DNA of 64,000 nt, taken from the NCBI GenBank assembly GCA_016860845.1, contig BOKF01000007.1, forward strand, positions 248,001 to 312,000, written 5' to 3'. Of this stretch, positions 20,058 through 26,238 are shown one piece after another. The position numbers and the translations under genes were made by a program. The notes beneath the pieces were generated by a model. That model saw nothing but the letters and a program-made list of their open reading frames with translations. It was not told where the DNA came from and searched no databases. The stretch is from Chloroflexota bacterium. GTDB lineage: Bacteria; Chloroflexota; Anaerolineae; 4572-78; J111. Positions within the stretch are counted from its first letter, which is position 1; each line of letters starts with the position of its first letter.

Positions 20058-20090
20058 GTAAGATTCTCGTAATATTTTCCTAGTATGCTC
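20058..20090 (+). promoter_or_regulatory. Possible 11-base direct-repeat operator before the radical SAM operon
   Basis: Units GTAAGATTCTC, GTAATATTTTC and CTAGTATGCTC follow one another at 11-base spacing about 100 bases before the radical SAM start. The third unit fits poorly. It overlaps the 5' region of the divergent DoxX gene. Confidence 0.35.
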
Positions 20091-20192
20091 CAAAAGTCCA
20101 CAGAGTCAAGATTAAATTTTTCCATCGAGTTTTTGCAGCAGAATATCAGCTTATGGGACATAGTAAACCTTGCTCCTATAGGAGGAATCCAC

Positions 20193-21320
20193 TTGTCTGA
20201 GTTCATTCCATTGCTTCTCTCGTCATCTCCGCCCCAAGAGTCGCTGAGGCCGCTGCCGGAGCAGACCTTCCTCCCCGACGCTTATCGCCTGCCCGACGGA
20301 GCAGCCAAAGGCCCGATTTCACCGATCACTCCCCGGGTGGTCTTCATCGAAGTTACCAACCGCTGCAATTTACTGTGCCAAACCTGTCCCCGCACCTTTT
20401 TCGACCGGGAGCCGTTGAAAACACTCACCTGTGCCGAGTTTGTCCAGATTGCCGAGCAGTTCCCGGAGATGCGCCGCGTCCTGCTGCACGGCATTGGCGA
20501 ACCGCTGCTCAACAAAGAACTACCCCACATCATCAAATACTTAAAAGGGCGCGAGGTTGAGGTGATTATCAACTCCAACGGCACCCTGCTGACGCCCGTT
20601 TGGCAGGAAGCGTTGGTGGAAAGCGGCCTCGACCAGTACCGCTGCTCGATTGATGGCGCCAGGCCCGAAACCTATGCCCGGATTCGGGGCGCTCATGCAC
20701 TCCCGAAACTGGTCGAAGGCTTGGCCGGACTCGTCAAAACCAAAGCCCGCCGGCAATCCAAAACACCCCGCCTTTCTATCTGGTGTGTGGGTACCAAAGA
20801 AAACCTGGCCGAGTTGCCGGATTTGGTGCGGTTGGCGGCTCGGTTAGGGGTGCCGGAACTTTACTTACAGCGTCTGGTTTACTTCGCCCACGAGCCGGAG
20901 CAGCAGTTTGGCATGGCGCATGATGACCGGGCCATTTTCGGCCCGGATCAGGATTACCAGGAGGAGATTATTGACGCCTGTGAGTTGCTGAGCGCCGAGT
21001 TAGGGGTTGACTTCCGGGCTTCGGGAGCGCGCGCCCCCCGCCACAGCCTGGAAGCTGCCCGACCAGCCGATTTTACTCCCTGGCAGGAATGTATGCGCCC
21101 CTGGACCACGGCCTATGTGACCGCTAACGGCAACTGTCTGCCCTGCTGCATTTCCCCTTTTGCCACCAGCCATTACCACAGCCTCATCCTGGGCAACCTG
21201 TTTGAGCGGCCTTTTACCGAAATTTGGAATGATCACTTTTACCGGCAATTCCGCACCACCCTGATGAGTTTGCAGCCCCATCAAGCTTGCGCCAGTTGTG
21301 GCGTGTATTGGAGTCTGTAA
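20193..21320 (+). CDS. Radical SAM/SPASM-domain protein
   Basis: TTG at 20193 follows a strong GGAGGA site by six bases, which decides it over longer in-frame starts. The 375-residue product has the [4Fe-4S]-SAM motif CNLLCQTC (Cys58, 62, 65) and HGIGEPLLN as the GGE-type SAM loop. A C-terminal SPASM-like region carries several cysteines (ECMRPW, NCLPCC, CASCGVYW) for auxiliary clusters. SPASM proteins often modify peptides or act in cofactor synthesis. It opens a tightly spaced run with an acyl-CoA-dehydrogenase-like gene 25 bases downstream. Substrate unknown. Confidence 0.87.
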   Translation: MSEFIPLLLSSSPPQESLRPLPEQTFLPDAYRLPDGAAKGPISPITPRVVFIEVTNRCNLLCQTCPRTFFDREPLKTLTCAEFVQIAEQFPEMRRVLLHGIGEPLLNKELPHIIKYLKGREVEVIINSNGTLLTPVWQEALVESGLDQYRCSIDGARPETYARIRGAHALPKLVEGLAGLVKTKARRQSKTPRLSIWCVGTKENLAELPDLVRLAARLGVPELYLQRLVYFAHEPEQQFGMAHDDRAIFGPDQDYQEEIIDACELLSAELGVDFRASGARAPRHSLEAARPADFTPWQECMRPWTTAYVTANGNCLPCCISPFATSHYHSLILGNLFERPFTEIWNDHFYRQFRTTLMSLQPHQACASCGVYWSL

Positions 21321-22497: not shown

Positions 22498-23028
22498 GTG
22501 GGCAAACAAGTTGACCAACTTATCAGTATGCTGCAAAGCTCGCTGGCCGAAACGCTGGAGGTGTTAGCCCGGCTGAGCGAAGCTGAACTGGACGATCCGT
22601 CCGACCATCCCTGCGCTATGGGGGGGACGGTGCGCGATCTGCTGACCCACAACATTGATCATGAGCGCATGCACGTCGGCCAAATTTACAGCGCCCGTTA
22701 CAGCTTGCGCCACATGCAAAAGAGCCAGGCCGACCGGCTCGTGGCCGAAACGCTGCGCGCCCGGACCGATTTGATCGCCGCCCTCATCGGCCTGCCCGAC
22801 AGCGCCCTCGATACGCGCACCCCCGACGACCAGTGGACTATTCGGGAGATGATTGAACACACCATTTACTGGGAGCGCCATTCCATAGACGACCTGGCCC
22901 ATCAAAAACTGGCCCACCGGCTGCCCACGGACCGGCCCCACCCGGTACTGGCAGTGACCGATCCTATCTACGGTAAGCTGGTGACTTCTGAGAATGATGC
23001 CCAAAAATCGCTTGCTGCCTCATCTTGA
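22498..23028 (+). CDS. DinB-like four-helix metal-binding protein
   Basis: GTG start with AAGGAGA about nine bases upstream, 12 bases after the dehydrogenase gene. 176 residues with helices typical of the DinB/YfiT superfamily: SLAETLEVLARLSEAELD, then DLLTHNIDHERMHVGQI with His residues, and WTIREMIEHTIYWERHSIDDL with further His. The family includes thiol transferases dependent on mycothiol or bacillithiol and maleylpyruvate isomerase. In this operon a thiol-handling role would fit, as inference. Confidence 0.78.
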   Translation: MGKQVDQLISMLQSSLAETLEVLARLSEAELDDPSDHPCAMGGTVRDLLTHNIDHERMHVGQIYSARYSLRHMQKSQADRLVAETLRARTDLIAALIGLPDSALDTRTPDDQWTIREMIEHTIYWERHSIDDLAHQKLAHRLPTDRPHPVLAVTDPIYGKLVTSENDAQKSLAASS

Positions 23029-23060
23029 GGTACAATGCGGTTACTGATATAGGTAAAATT

Positions 23061-23288
23061 ATGCAAGCTGATGTCATCCTTGATGCGGGAGAAACGGGCT
23101 GTGGTGAGCTAATTATGCTCGTCTTCCAAAAAATGAAAACTCTCTTCCCTGGACAAACGCTCGAAGTCGTCGCTTATGACTTGGCGGCTGAAACCGACAT
23201 CTCGGCCTGGTGCCGCATGACGGGCAATTTGCTTTTGGAGCAAAGTACTGCAACTCAACCGAAGCACTTTCTTATTCAAAAAAGGTAA
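23061..23288 (+). CDS. TusA/SirA-like sulfur-carrier protein
   Basis: ATG at 23061 gives 75 residues. The pattern ILDAGETGCGELIM followed by PGQTLEVVAYDLAAETDISAW and a C-terminal hydrophobic strand is that of TusA, where a persulfide forms on the cysteine of D-x-x-G-x-x-CPxP. Cys14 is kept, but the two prolines are replaced (CGEL). It is followed 26 bases on by a DsrE-like gene, a pairing known from sulfur-relay systems. Confidence 0.75.
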   Translation: MQADVILDAGETGCGELIMLVFQKMKTLFPGQTLEVVAYDLAAETDISAWCRMTGNLLLEQSTATQPKHFLIQKR

Positions 23289-23313: not shown

Positions 23314-23673
23314 ATGACTAAGTTATTAATTAACCTAACAACGGCTAAAGATAATCCCGATAGAACGGTCGTAGCTTTCGTTGTAGCCAACGCCGGTGTA
23401 GCTGCCGGGCAGGAAGTGACCATTTTTCTCAGTGTAGAAGGCGTCCGCCTGGCGGTTGCTGGGTACGCCGACGATATTTCCTCTCCCGGTTTTAAACCCC
23501 TCAAAGAATTATTACCTGATTTTATCAATAATGGCGGCAAAATTTGGGTGTGCCCACCCTGCTTTAATGCCCGTGAGTTAGACAAGGAAAATTTGATTCC
23601 CAACGCAAGTTTTGCTGGTGGGGCTGCTGTCGTCGAGTTGCTAGCCCAAGGTGCGGCTAGCCTGAGCTACTAA
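23314..23673 (+). CDS. DsrE/DsrF-like protein
   Basis: 119 residues with the Rossmann-like DsrE fold: KLLINLTTAKDNPDRTVVAF, EVTIFLSVEGVRLA and the C-terminal active-site region IWVCPPCFNAREL with Cys80 and Cys83. Such proteins accept or pass sulfur as persulfide, often next to TusA. Start has AAGAGG upstream. The next gene begins one base after the stop, so the two are co-translated. Confidence 0.82.
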   Translation: MTKLLINLTTAKDNPDRTVVAFVVANAGVAAGQEVTIFLSVEGVRLAVAGYADDISSPGFKPLKELLPDFINNGGKIWVCPPCFNARELDKENLIPNASFAGGAAVVELLAQGAASLSY

Positions 23674-23674
23674 A

Positions 23675-24484
23675 GTGTTTGAGCAACAAATTGAACCCCA
23701 GATCGCCTGTGATCCACCGGCGTTTCAATGGAAATTATGGCTGTATACCAATTACGACTGCAATCTGCGCTGTTCGTACTGCGTGGCTAAATCCAGCCCT
23801 AATGCGCCGCGCCGGGCGCTGGGCCTGACAAACGTGCAGCAGTTGGTAGATGAAGCTGTTGAGCTTGGCTTCAGCGATATTTTCTTCACCGGTGGTGAGC
23901 CGTTCATCCTGAACGAGATTTACGATATGCTGGCCTACTCGTCGGCGCGGGTCAAGACAACCGTGTTGACCAATGCCATGATTCTGCGCGGCCCACGCCT
24001 GGATAAATTGTGCGACATTGCCAATGATAACTTGATCGTCCAGGTCAGTTTGGATGGCGGCCAGCCCGAACATCACGACGCTTACCGGGGCAAAGGTTCT
24101 TGGGCCAAAACCGTCGAAGGAATCAAACTGCTGCAAGCGCGAGGTTTCCGCGTCCGCCTGAGTACCACCGAAACACCGGCCAACTCAGCTCACCTGGCCC
24201 AGGTTTGCGACTTTCATCACAGCCTGGGCATCCCCGACGAGGACCATTTTGTGCGCCCCCTGGCCCGGCGCGGTTACTCCAGGGAGGGGCTGGAATTGTG
24301 CATGGCTAACCTGATCCCCGAAGTAACCATCAACCTCGATGGGGTGTTCTGGCACCCCCTCTCCACCGACGCCGATATGCTGGTCAGCCGTAAGCTGTTT
24401 CCGCTGGCCGCCTCGGTGGAGCGCATCCAACAACAGCTTGCGGTGCTGGCCCAGGGCGGCGTGCCGCTGATGACCTTCACCTGA
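23675..24484 (+). CDS. Radical SAM protein, compact, no SPASM domain
   Basis: GTG start directly after the DsrE gene. 269 residues; cluster motif CNLRCSYC (Cys29, 33, 36), GGE motif FFTGGEPFILNE, and VQVSLDGGQPEHHDAYRG typical of MoaA/PqqE/NirJ-like proteins. The C-terminus is shorter than SPASM relatives and has no second cysteine cluster. Tight coupling to TusA- and DsrE-like genes suggests chemistry that ends in sulfur transfer, but no substrate can be read. Confidence 0.85.
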   Translation: MFEQQIEPQIACDPPAFQWKLWLYTNYDCNLRCSYCVAKSSPNAPRRALGLTNVQQLVDEAVELGFSDIFFTGGEPFILNEIYDMLAYSSARVKTTVLTNAMILRGPRLDKLCDIANDNLIVQVSLDGGQPEHHDAYRGKGSWAKTVEGIKLLQARGFRVRLSTTETPANSAHLAQVCDFHHSLGIPDEDHFVRPLARRGYSREGLELCMANLIPEVTINLDGVFWHPLSTDADMLVSRKLFPLAASVERIQQQLAVLAQGGVPLMTFT

Positions 24485-24521
24485 GGGTAGGGCAACTGGC
24501 TTCCGGGTGAAGCGATATAAA

Positions 24522-24560
24522 GTAACAGAGTAGCAAGGTTGCAGGGTGCTACTTTGTTAC
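24522..24560 (+). repeat. Intercistronic hairpin
   Basis: GTAACAGAGTAGCA and TGCTACTTTGTTAC (13 of 14 paired) enclose an 11-base loop between the radical SAM gene and the RAM-domain gene. No T-run follows on the plus strand, so it may be a processing or attenuation point or a dispersed repeat. Confidence 0.55.
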
Positions 24561-24589
24561 CCTGAAATTCAATTCAAGGAGTGTCCACG

Positions 24590-24865
24590 ATGATCCAAGC
24601 CTTTGTTTTTATCGAAGCCGAACCGGGCCGGGTGCAAGAGCTGGTCAAAGAGCTGGCCGGCATGGAACTGGCCAGTTCGGTTATCAAGCAGGTTTACGCT
24701 GTGACCGGGCGCTGCGACCTGATTGCCCTCATCGAAAGCCCCGATCTCCCCTCTCTGGGCGACTGAGTCGCCAACGGCATAGGGAACGCCGTGGGCGTTC
24801 GCCGCACTGAAACCAGCCTGATCGTCTGGTCCGAAGCCGCTCCTTCCCCGCCAACTTCTTCATAA
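24590..24865 (+). CDS. Lrp/AsnC-type RAM-domain protein with in-frame TGA (candidate selenocysteine)
   Basis: ATG at 24590 follows CAAGGAG. The frame reads IQAFVFIEAEPGRVQELVKEL and CDLIALIESPDLPSLGD, a stand-alone ligand-binding domain of Lrp/AsnC regulators, then TGA at 24764-24766 (residue 59). The same frame continues as VANGIGNAVGVRRTETSLIV, which is exactly the missing end of the domain, to TAA at 24863. With the TGA read through, the length (91 residues) matches the family. A perfect 7-base hairpin lies 24 bases after the TGA. Selenocysteine, a Trp-to-stop mutation or a sequencing error are all possible. Confidence 0.6.
24784..24800 (+). promoter_or_regulatory. Candidate bacterial SECIS hairpin of the RAM-domain gene
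   Basis: GAACGCC and GGCGTTC pair perfectly around the loop GTG. The loop begins 24 bases after the in-frame TGA and its first base is G, as required in bacterial SECIS rules (loop 16-37 bases after UGA, G in the first two loop positions). Support is by structure only. Confidence 0.45.
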
Positions 24866-24886
24866 AATTGTGCCGAGGAGGAAGCC

Positions 24887-25615
24887 ATGAATCCAGATAT
24901 TCGCGCCGGAGTACAACACGCCTACTCCGCTGCGGCTGAAAATCCGCAAGCCGGGCATCCCTTTCCGGTGGGCCGGCTCTTTGCCGAGAGCCTGGGCTAT
25001 TCGCCCGAAGTGCTGGCCGATATTCCGGCGGCGGCCATTGATGCTTTTGCCGGCGTTTCCAACGCGGCTGTTTTTGCCGACATTCCGCCCGGCGCAACCG
25101 TGCTTGACCTGGGCTGCGGGGCCGGCCTCGACTCGTTGATCGCCGCCCGGCGGGTCGGCCCAACCGGAAAGATTATTGGGATAGATTTTAGTGAAGCGAT
25201 GTTAGGACGGGCGCGTCAAGCTACTGCAGAAGCCGGGATCAGCCATATTGAATTTCGTCGGGCCGATGCTGAAAATCTCCCTCTTGATGACGCCTCAATT
25301 GATGTCGCCCTGGTCAACGGTATCTTTAATCTAAACCCGATGCGCGACTCTATCTTCCGCGAGCTGGCTCGCGTGGTGCGGCCCGATGGGTTCATCTACG
25401 CCGCGGAGCTTATTCTGTGTGAACCGCTGCCCCCTGAGACCCTGGCGAGTGAAACGAATTGGTTCGCCTGAATTGCCGGGGCCAAGGAAGGTGGAACCTT
25501 CCTATCTGAGTTTCGTGCCGTTGGTTTCAAGGAAGCCCGGCTGCTGCGCACCCTGCGCAATGCGCGAACAAAAAACCCCCACGTGCTGGCCGCAGAGGTA
25601 TGCGCCCAAAGGTAA
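24887..25615 (+). CDS. ArsM-like SAM methyltransferase with in-frame TGA at a conserved Cys position (candidate selenoprotein)
   Basis: ATG at 24887 follows CGAGGAGG. 242 residues if TGA 25469-25471 (residue 195) is read through. ArsM-like features are [16 protein letters not shown] N-terminus, [10 protein letters not shown], the SAM loop [30 protein letters not shown] and [20 protein letters not shown]. After ETNWFA comes the TGA, then [19 protein letters not shown] in the same frame; ArsM proteins have a metalloid-binding Cys right before (I/V)AGA. The early ArsM Cys (GCGNP region) is Val here. A perfect hairpin follows. Terminated at the TGA it would lose its last 48 residues. Confidence 0.72.
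25485..25503 (+). promoter_or_regulatory. Candidate bacterial SECIS hairpin of the methyltransferase gene
   Basis: AGGAAGGT pairs with ACCTTCCT over 8 bases around a GGA loop. The loop starts 21 bases after the TGA and begins with G; a GGU lies at the top of the 5' arm. Stem length, loop size and spacing all fall inside published bacterial SECIS limits. Confidence 0.55.
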
Positions 25616-25655
25616 CAAAAACATAACCTTTCTGTAAGAGAATGTTAATTTTTGC
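25612..25655 (+). promoter_or_regulatory. OmpR/PhoB-type operator with four 11-base repeats
   Basis: GTAACAAAAAC, ATAACCTTTCT, GTAAGAGAATG and TTAATTTTTGC lie end to end, each with TAA at positions 2-4. This spacing is typical of Pho-box-like sites. It starts in the stop codon of the methyltransferase extension and ends 40 bases before the Nudix start, so it probably controls the Nudix gene and those after it. Confidence 0.55.
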
Positions 25656-25695
25656 ATGGCAAAATAGGGTCATACCCTGCCAATGAGGAGTTAGG

Positions 25696-26238
25696 ATGCC
25701 CCCTAAAGCCTGGAAAACCCGCTCTTCGCGCCGGATTTACGAGAACCCCTGGATGAAGCTGCGCGAAGACATTGCCGAAATGCCTGACGGCAAAACCACT
25801 GTTTACGGCGTCATCGAGTGCGCCGAGTGCGTGGGCGTCTTGCCCTTTATTAATGACGATCATGTGGTCATGGTGCGCCAGTACCGCTACGTTTTCGGCG
25901 AAGATCATCGCTGGGAAATGCCGACCGGCGGGGTCAAGCCGGGCGAGTCGCTGGAAGAAGCCGCTCGGCGCGAGTTGCGCGAGGAGGTGGGCTACCATGC
26001 CGCCGAGTTGCAGCACGTCAGCACCTACTTTCCCAGCAAATCTATTGTGCGCGAAACTGGATACCTCTTCATAGGCCGAGGCTTGACCCAGGTGAAGGCC
26101 GTTCCCGACGAAACCGAGTTTCTGGAAACCGCCATTTTTCCGTTTGAACAGGTGCTGCAAATGGTCAACGACAGCGAAATCCGCGACAGTATGACCGTGA
26201 TTACCGTGCTGCATGCGGCCCGGCTGCGAGGGAAATAG
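25696..26238 (+). CDS. Nudix hydrolase, ADP-ribose pyrophosphatase type
   Basis: 180 residues. The Nudix box GGVKPGESLEEAARRELREEVGY fits G-x5-E-x7-REUxEExGU with all metal-binding glutamates present; it is preceded by VVMVRQYRYVFGEDHRWEMPTGG, typical of ADP-ribose/nucleotide-sugar pyrophosphatases. GAGGAG lies nine bases before ATG. It hydrolyses a nucleoside diphosphate linked to another group; ADP-ribose or a sugar nucleotide is likely. It stands behind an OmpR/PhoB-like operator. Confidence 0.88.
   Translation: MPPKAWKTRSSRRIYENPWMKLREDIAEMPDGKTTVYGVIECAECVGVLPFINDDHVVMVRQYRYVFGEDHRWEMPTGGVKPGESLEEAARRELREEVGYHAAELQHVSTYFPSKSIVRETGYLFIGRGLTQVKAVPDETEFLETAIFPFEQVLQMVNDSEIRDSMTVITVLHAARLRGK

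Follow-up and report, generated by a model that had tools for sequence, protein, structure and literature searches.

Candidate selenocysteine codons in adjacent genes for a RAM-domain protein and an ArsM-like methyltransferase of a Chloroflexota bacterium

In the 64,000-nucleotide stretch of Chloroflexota DNA analysed here (the window), the reading frame of an ArsM-like SAM methyltransferase is interrupted by a TGA codon and then continues, which raises the question of whether this codon ends translation or specifies selenocysteine (Sec), and whether it is the only such codon of the locus. The interrupted frame at 24887–25615 had been pointed out in a first-pass annotation and is confirmed by re-reading of the sequence: it opens with ATG at 24887, contains a sole TGA at 25469–25471 and runs through another 47 sense codons to a TAA at 25613–25615. 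A second in-frame TGA (24764–24766), absent from that annotation, sits in the gene just upstream. The two genes are termed ArsM-U and RAM-U and are listed together with their neighbours in Table 1.

Table 1. Positions of the candidate selenoprotein genes, their proposed decoding elements and neighbouring genes in the window
Feature	Positions	Strand	Remarks
SPASM-type radical SAM protein	20085..21320	+	best NCBIfam match TIGR04317, 137 bits (cut-off 380)
DinB-like protein	22498..23028	+	PF12867
TusA-like protein (GCGEL...WCRMTG)	23025..23288	+	PF01206, 37.2 bits
DsrE-like protein, VCPPC motif	23314..23673	+	PF02635, 54.1 bits
Radical SAM protein related to the Rv1681 family	23675..24484	+	NF049973, 298.7 bits (cut-off 380)
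RAM-U, stand-alone Lrp/AsnC ligand-binding (RAM) domain gene	24590..24865	+	91 aa, candidate Sec at residue 59
RAM-U, candidate Sec codon (in-frame TGA)	24764..24766	+	helix 2 of the predicted fold
RAM-U, SECIS-like hairpin GAACGCC-GUG-GGCGUUC	24784..24800	+	loop 24 nt after UGA
ArsM-U, ArsM-like SAM methyltransferase	24887..25615	+	242 aa, candidate Sec at residue 195 (UIAG)
ArsM-U, candidate Sec codon (in-frame TGA, codon 195)	25469..25471	+	
ArsM-U, SECIS-like hairpin AGGAAGGU-GGA-ACCUUCCU	25485..25503	+	loop 21 nt after UGA

The interrupted ArsM-like gene

The first-pass annotation had proposed that Sec replaces a Cys in ArsM-U, and this proposal is supported by the ends of homologous proteins, by Cys-containing relatives and by hairpins linked to the TGA. 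Among the best 120 of 5902 database homologs, 114 end exactly at the TGA codon with the residues W-F/Y/S-A/S/T/G, and the remaining six carry Cys (three proteins) or Trp (three proteins) at this column; more distant relatives have Cys there. An alignment of Cys-containing homologs had been suggested as a test of the proposal, and 26 of 61 fetched ArsM genes were indeed found to encode Cys at the column, the other 35 having TGA. These 61 genes are the motif-matched part of the fetched sequences after removal of duplicates and represent a subset of the relatives; an earlier motif had picked up 24 TGA and 49 Cys genes, without L001–L010 and without the window. The presence of the TGA in 35 distinct ArsM genes from many assemblies makes a sequencing error implausible. 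Although the window may be of metagenomic origin, the same codon recurs across many genomes and contigs, and the probability that it arose by an assembly or sequencing error is practically negligible.

A search of 400 Chloroflexota genomes (E <= 1e-40) gave a similar picture: among the 55 ArsM-like matches listed, 25 contain a single internal stop, which is TGA every time, and 30 contain none. TGA at the ArsM column also occurs in records from Phycisphaerae, Methylomirabilis, Acidobacteria, Planctomycetota, Nitrospiraceae and others. Sequence comparison indicates that the protein frame past the UGA of ArsM-U is conserved. A scan of IMG/VR returned seven weak relatives of ArsM (24–35% identity). 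One of the 35 TGA genes, L040 (Clostridium senegalense JC122, 6487), has TGA at the same column (UVTGA) and a weak hairpin; as it comes from a named isolate, it is a possible laboratory-accessible relative of ArsM-U.

In bacterial SECIS elements, a small loop with a G is located 16–37 nt after the UGA. The 8-base stem with a GGA loop that had been noticed behind the TGA of ArsM-U is present, all eight pairs are perfect, and both its spacing and its loop agree with this rule. Folded as a single sequence, it is unremarkable, with z values between −0.6 and −1.3 relative to dinucleotide shuffles. The SECIS search that had been recommended for this region came back empty, as Rfam has no match at the TGA of ArsM-U; there is no gathering-score SECIS match in the window, and 24500–25700 gives four unrelated sub-threshold matches. 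Consequently, the case for the hairpin must be comparative. When a G-type loop and an energy of −8 kcal/mol or better were demanded, a SECIS-like hairpin followed the codon in 29 of the 35 TGA genes vs. one of the 26 Cys genes (Mann-Whitney p 5e-9, with related sequences treated as independent). Synonymous recoding gave p < 0.05 for the hairpin of 17 of the 35 TGA genes and none of the 26 Cys genes, the value for the window being 0.035. Six of the 35 TGA genes do not have a strong hairpin (L101, L111, L113, L008, L009 and L040).

Taken as a comparative case, these data make ArsM-U almost certainly a selenoprotein, in which Sec would replace the conserved Cys of the (C/U)IAGA motif. TGA-type ArsM is an already known selenoprotein family: Table 1 of PMC13188914 lists an arsenite methyltransferase (NF008823, UxxG, WP_011987699.1) as an experimentally verified selenoprotein, and ArsM is also among the selenoproteins listed in PMC9312934. 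NF008823 shares with ArsM-U the methyltransferase fold and the Sec at the Cys of (C/U)IAG; it aligns with residues 30–224 at 169.7 bits (C for Sec), below its 263-bit cut-off, and ArsM-U differs from it in standing beside RAM-U, radical SAM, TusA-like and DsrE-like genes. An N-terminal ArsM part with UxxG, as in ArsM-U, is likewise found in NF041537 (AhpD), NF041536 (DUF2284) and NF047649 (UXPK-star), against which ArsM-U scores 197.9, 159.3 and 185 bits, far under the respective cut-offs of 510, 575 and 460. In these three families, one polypeptide carries an additional Sec domain, whereas the second candidate Sec of the window lies in the separate upstream RAM gene.

The upstream RAM-domain gene

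Read as far as its TGA, RAM-U is an open frame at 24581–24766 encoding 61 aa, or 58 aa counted from the ATG at 24590. Past its TGA, the frame reads VANGIGNAVGVRRTETSLIVW... and stops at a TAA at 24863–24865. The PF01037 model (AsnC_trans_reg) aligns across the TGA, covering residues 10–81 with 35.2 bits (C for Sec), so that RAM-U passes the gathering score of 25 bits. It also shows the RAM fold by structure prediction (best of five models pLDDT 83 and pTM 0.68; others 61–80), with residue 59 lying within a helix of residues 53–66; nearly all of the 39 rows in the alignment used for this prediction end at the UGA. The stand-alone RAM proteins TTHA0845 (2djw) and FFRP-DM1 (2e1a) have the same fold, 2djw being the nearest structure (Foldseek E 1.6e-7, TM 0.76; phmmer E 9.2e-10) and carrying Val at the Sec column.

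The RAM-U family comprises 362 database proteins (E <= 0.001), which are mostly truncated to 57–59 aa. Within the best 120 of these 362, 118 stop at the same codon, their final residues being GD in 116 cases and GN and GE in one case each; the other two read past the column with Ser (P0122) or Trp (P0123). Under an E limit of 1e-12, matches were obtained in one of 301 genomes of a phylum sample (G152) and 11 of 346 genomes of a class sample, and a search of the class of G152 (29 genomes) returned G152 alone again. With the window included, 12 of 13 loci have the TGA codon, the exception being G539 at 40% identity. The comparisons below refer to these 12 loci, i.e., 11 genome matches (66–99% protein identity to the window copy) and the window, with G539 left out as it lacks the TGA. 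Scanning IMG/VR returned no relatives of the RAM protein, and a tblastn search of plasmids gave 11 records with 32–34% identity, nine of which are annotated as Lrp/AsnC regulators.

At the Sec column itself, a single Cys relative was seen (L089), and the remaining seven RAM proteins inspected that lack the UGA carry A, I, V, L or F. In contrast to ArsM-U, the Sec of RAM-U thus does not simply take the place of a widespread Cys. A query with residues 41–80, which span the UGA and the part of the protein beyond it, returned 15 proteins with scores that are weak because the region is short. In thirteen of them (P0242–P0254), a TusA-like domain follows a RAM tail; judged by protein alignment alone, all 13 begin with the codon immediately downstream of the UGA, and they look like the second halves of RAM-Sec-TusA fusion genes. 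Their TusA-like parts keep the cysteine of GC...GP, and the WCRM cysteine is kept in 12 of 13 (WTRM in P0251). Several of these proteins are named TusA-related sulfurtransferase or tRNA 2-thiouridine synthesizing protein A. At the DNA level, G529 encodes RAM-Sec-TusA in one frame, followed by a DsrE-like gene. In P0064, for which the protein level alone was considered, a RAM tail is joined to ArsM and the protein ends at the ArsM UGA.

If both UGA codons were true stops, translation would yield a RAM fragment of 58 aa and a methyltransferase of 194 aa, and the remaining sequences would be decayed or a separate product, perhaps restarted at the GTG adjoining the UGA. Nearly all annotation is of this kind (114 of the best 120 of 5902 ArsM homologs, 118 of the best 120 of 362 RAM homologs), and GTG directly follows the RAM UGA in seven of the 12 loci, so that a stop-start junction can be imagined. 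However, GTC stands in this place in three and ATT in two of the 12 loci, and the protein frame is conserved after each UGA. In ten of the 12 RAM-U loci, the 22 codons before the UGA show 208, 99 and 558 changes at codon positions 1, 2 and 3, the 22 codons after it 221, 180 and 477, and the next 12 codons 395, 372 and 409. The frame ends 21–32 codons past the RAM UGA in ten of 12 loci, just beyond the single predicted domain, and the fusions with TusA and ArsM span the RAM UGA. Moreover, the internal stop is always TGA (25 ArsM matches listed, 12 RAM-U loci) while terminal stops vary: for RAM-U, TAA was found eight times, TAG twice and TGA never, with the frame still open in the stretch examined in two loci. 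Termination at both codons is therefore considered highly improbable.

Reading of the RAM UGA as Sec is in agreement with the hairpin that follows it. Aligned over the 12 loci, its arms read (G)(G/C)G(A/G)(A/G)C(G/A)CC and GG(C/U)GU(U/C)CG(C) around a GUG loop, which lies 24 nt after the UGA in 11 of 12 sequences; G152 has a 5-nt loop at 23 nt. A hairpin with a larger loop had also been considered and was dropped when the alignment showed the GUG triloop. Pairing is found in 85.2% of cells of the 12 sequences vs. 39–57% when the arms are slid by 1–3 columns. Two pairs change on both sides (G-C in seven and A-U in five sequences; G-C in 11 and A-U in one); 21 of 500 shuffles have at least as many double-change pairs. 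The covariation score is 0.214 vs. 0.136 (sd 0.018) in shuffles. The three further pair types were reached by all 500 shuffles (mean 4.0), and the two outermost pairs hold poorly (8/12 and 4/12). Hairpin energies range from −6.3 to −19.0 kcal/mol over the 12 loci; synonymous recoding gave p < 0.05 in seven of 12 (window 0.084), and the full-fold synonymous test a mean z of −0.84 over 12. Combining the recoding results into one value counts related sequences as independent, and such a value is unreliable as a probability. The hairpin is absent from all eight non-UGA RAM relatives, the best candidate among them (L090, −8.9 kcal/mol) being at another position.

It could be argued that ArsM-U is the sole selenoprotein and that the RAM UGA is an accidental mutation spread by descent, given that a Cys relative of RAM-U was found once and that no Lrp/AsnC selenoprotein family appears in the 119-entry 2026 table (PMC13188914). 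Against this stands the retention of the UGA, the frame and the covarying hairpin in all 12 loci, with the 11 relatives at 66–99% identity, and the ending of 118 of the best 120 of 362 homologs at this position. Such an accident is judged most unlikely, and RAM-U is very probably a selenoprotein in its own right. With regard to novelty, AsnC or Lrp is not named in PMC12013277 by term search, and in NCBIfam 20, which includes many selenoprotein models, RAM-U and its TusA fusion match only weakly LysM, LrpA, TusA and similar models, which are non-selenoprotein models. The titles retrieved in a literature search on AsnC/Lrp selenoproteins contained nothing on the topic, and an earlier description elsewhere is possible. 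As far as these sources extend, RAM-U looks like a selenoprotein family absent from the lists checked.

Decoding of the UGA codons

Readthrough of the UGA as Trp, by a near-cognate tRNA or a change of the genetic code, would be another way to obtain full-length proteins, and Trp does occupy the column in four database proteins, three of the ArsM and one of the RAM type. All four (P0021, P0022, P0037 and P0123) are jgi-tagged and come from contigs of 1.0–1.5 kb; they probably reflect the application of code 4 to short contigs during annotation. Within the window, TGA ends 17 of 44 long stop-to-stop frames, the ArsM frame counted, and is thus an ordinary stop; a code change is not involved, and an alternative code was rejected. 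At the DNA level, the codons that replace TGA in ArsM genes are Cys codons, and the hairpins go with UGA. Decoding as Trp is accordingly regarded as extremely improbable.

Insertion of Sec would depend on the corresponding machinery, a search for which had been named as a further test of the first-pass proposal. The closest relative identified, G670, which is 77% identical in DNA across 8.9 kb surrounding the locus, has selA, selB, tRNA-Sec and a TGA-containing selD. Among the 11 genomes with RAM-U, selA exceeds the cut-off in all 11, tRNA-Sec reaches 60 bits or more in nine (it is weak in G579 and G652) and selD is over its cut-off in eight. The tRNA-Sec model also exceeded its cut-off in five of 14 control genomes, and therefore only high scores were used. 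The selB model passed its cut-off in five of the 11 vs. 34 of 40 non-carriers, and pieces of selB were detected in three more RAM-U genomes with the G670 protein. In G662, G529 and G628, selA and tRNA-Sec are present; neither the family model nor the G670 protein revealed a convincing selB, the matches being limited to the N-terminal part at 29–34% identity. This gap may be due to incomplete genomes or to something else. As selA, too, is over its cut-off in 34 of 40 non-carriers, the machinery is a necessary precondition, apparently provided by most of these genomes, and is neither specific to RAM-U nor proof of Sec insertion. All eight selD matches over the cut-off (L188–L190 included) contain one TGA themselves, which independently points to Sec decoding.

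Sequence comparison gives good support to decoding by SelB and tRNA-Sec. In the proposed mechanism, the UGA of both genes would be read as Sec by SelB and tRNA-Sec via a short hairpin with a small, G-starting loop 21–24 nt after the UGA. That two neighbouring selenoproteins are produced from the locus in this manner is very likely.

Gene neighbourhood and proposed role

The most constant neighbour of RAM-U is the Rv1681-type radical SAM gene, which is located upstream on the same strand within 1.5 kb in all 12 loci, the gap being 1.5 kb in G577. This gene (E <= 1e-60) was found in 18 of 346 genomes, among them all ten with RAM-U, and hence also occurs without RAM-U, the rest of the 18 having no RAM-U match. 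Second copies in L209 (G563) and L210 (G662) have no RAM gene within about 1.5 kb. The NF049973 model of the Rv1681 family aligns with residues 20–256 of the window protein, under its cut-off, and opens with a stretch of about 54 positions that weakly matches the TusA-like proteins of these loci (E 0.005 to 3e-5); in the window, the TusA-like and radical SAM genes are separate. A literature search on the Rv1681 radical SAM protein was without result.

Other neighbours were counted in the fetched stretches, some of which are short. A separate TusA-like gene lies near RAM-U in six of 12 loci and is fused to it in a seventh; DsrE-like genes are found in six and DinB-like genes in three of the 12. 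Relatives of the SPASM radical SAM protein occur in eight of 12 loci, including two that are encoded on the opposite strand and are only 42–48% identical, and the SPASM gene of the window is possibly part of a wider cassette. ArsM-U adjoins RAM-U in two of 12 loci only, the window and G670, so that their link is weaker than that between RAM-U and the radical SAM gene; G318 has the radical SAM gene and ArsM-U without RAM-U. These arrangements suggest that RAM-U and its partner genes form one working unit, which is firmest for RAM-U, the TusA-like protein and the radical SAM protein.

TusA and DsrE proteins are persulfide carriers, ArsM methylates metalloids and RAM domains bind small ligands. 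A role can be proposed from these partner families, in which the TusA-like and DsrE-like cysteines would carry sulfur or selenium as persulfide or perselenide, the selenol of RAM-U would receive or sense a chalcogen or metalloid, and the radical SAM enzyme and ArsM-U would modify and methylate this chalcogen or metalloid, the selenol of ArsM-U serving as nucleophile or ligand. Such a selenium-dependent cassette for sulfur/selenium relay and methylation is a tentative assignment, on the doubtful side of even; arsenic is only one of the possible substrates. It is conceivable, though slightly short of evenly balanced, that RAM-U founds a new selenoprotein family and, together with the TusA-like, DsrE-like and radical SAM proteins and ArsM-U, belongs to an undescribed selenium-dependent pathway in which chalcogens or metalloids are carried on protein selenols and methylated. 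Part of this reading, and held with the same reserve, is that the Sec of RAM-U would reside in a ligand-binding domain, not in a thioredoxin-like redox site.

On this reading, RAM-U would have been hidden in databases by a cut at the UGA, which leaves a 58-aa "hypothetical/Lrp/GYD" protein and, in fusions, a "TusA-related sulfurtransferase". With 362 database proteins (E <= 0.001), the family can hardly be called rare, yet 118 of its best 120 members are cut at this codon. Its constant radical SAM neighbour and natural fusions provide a ready hypothesis. If true, a RAM-fold selenoprotein family would widen the known places of Sec and would suggest that selenols may bind or relay something, beyond thiol-type redox.
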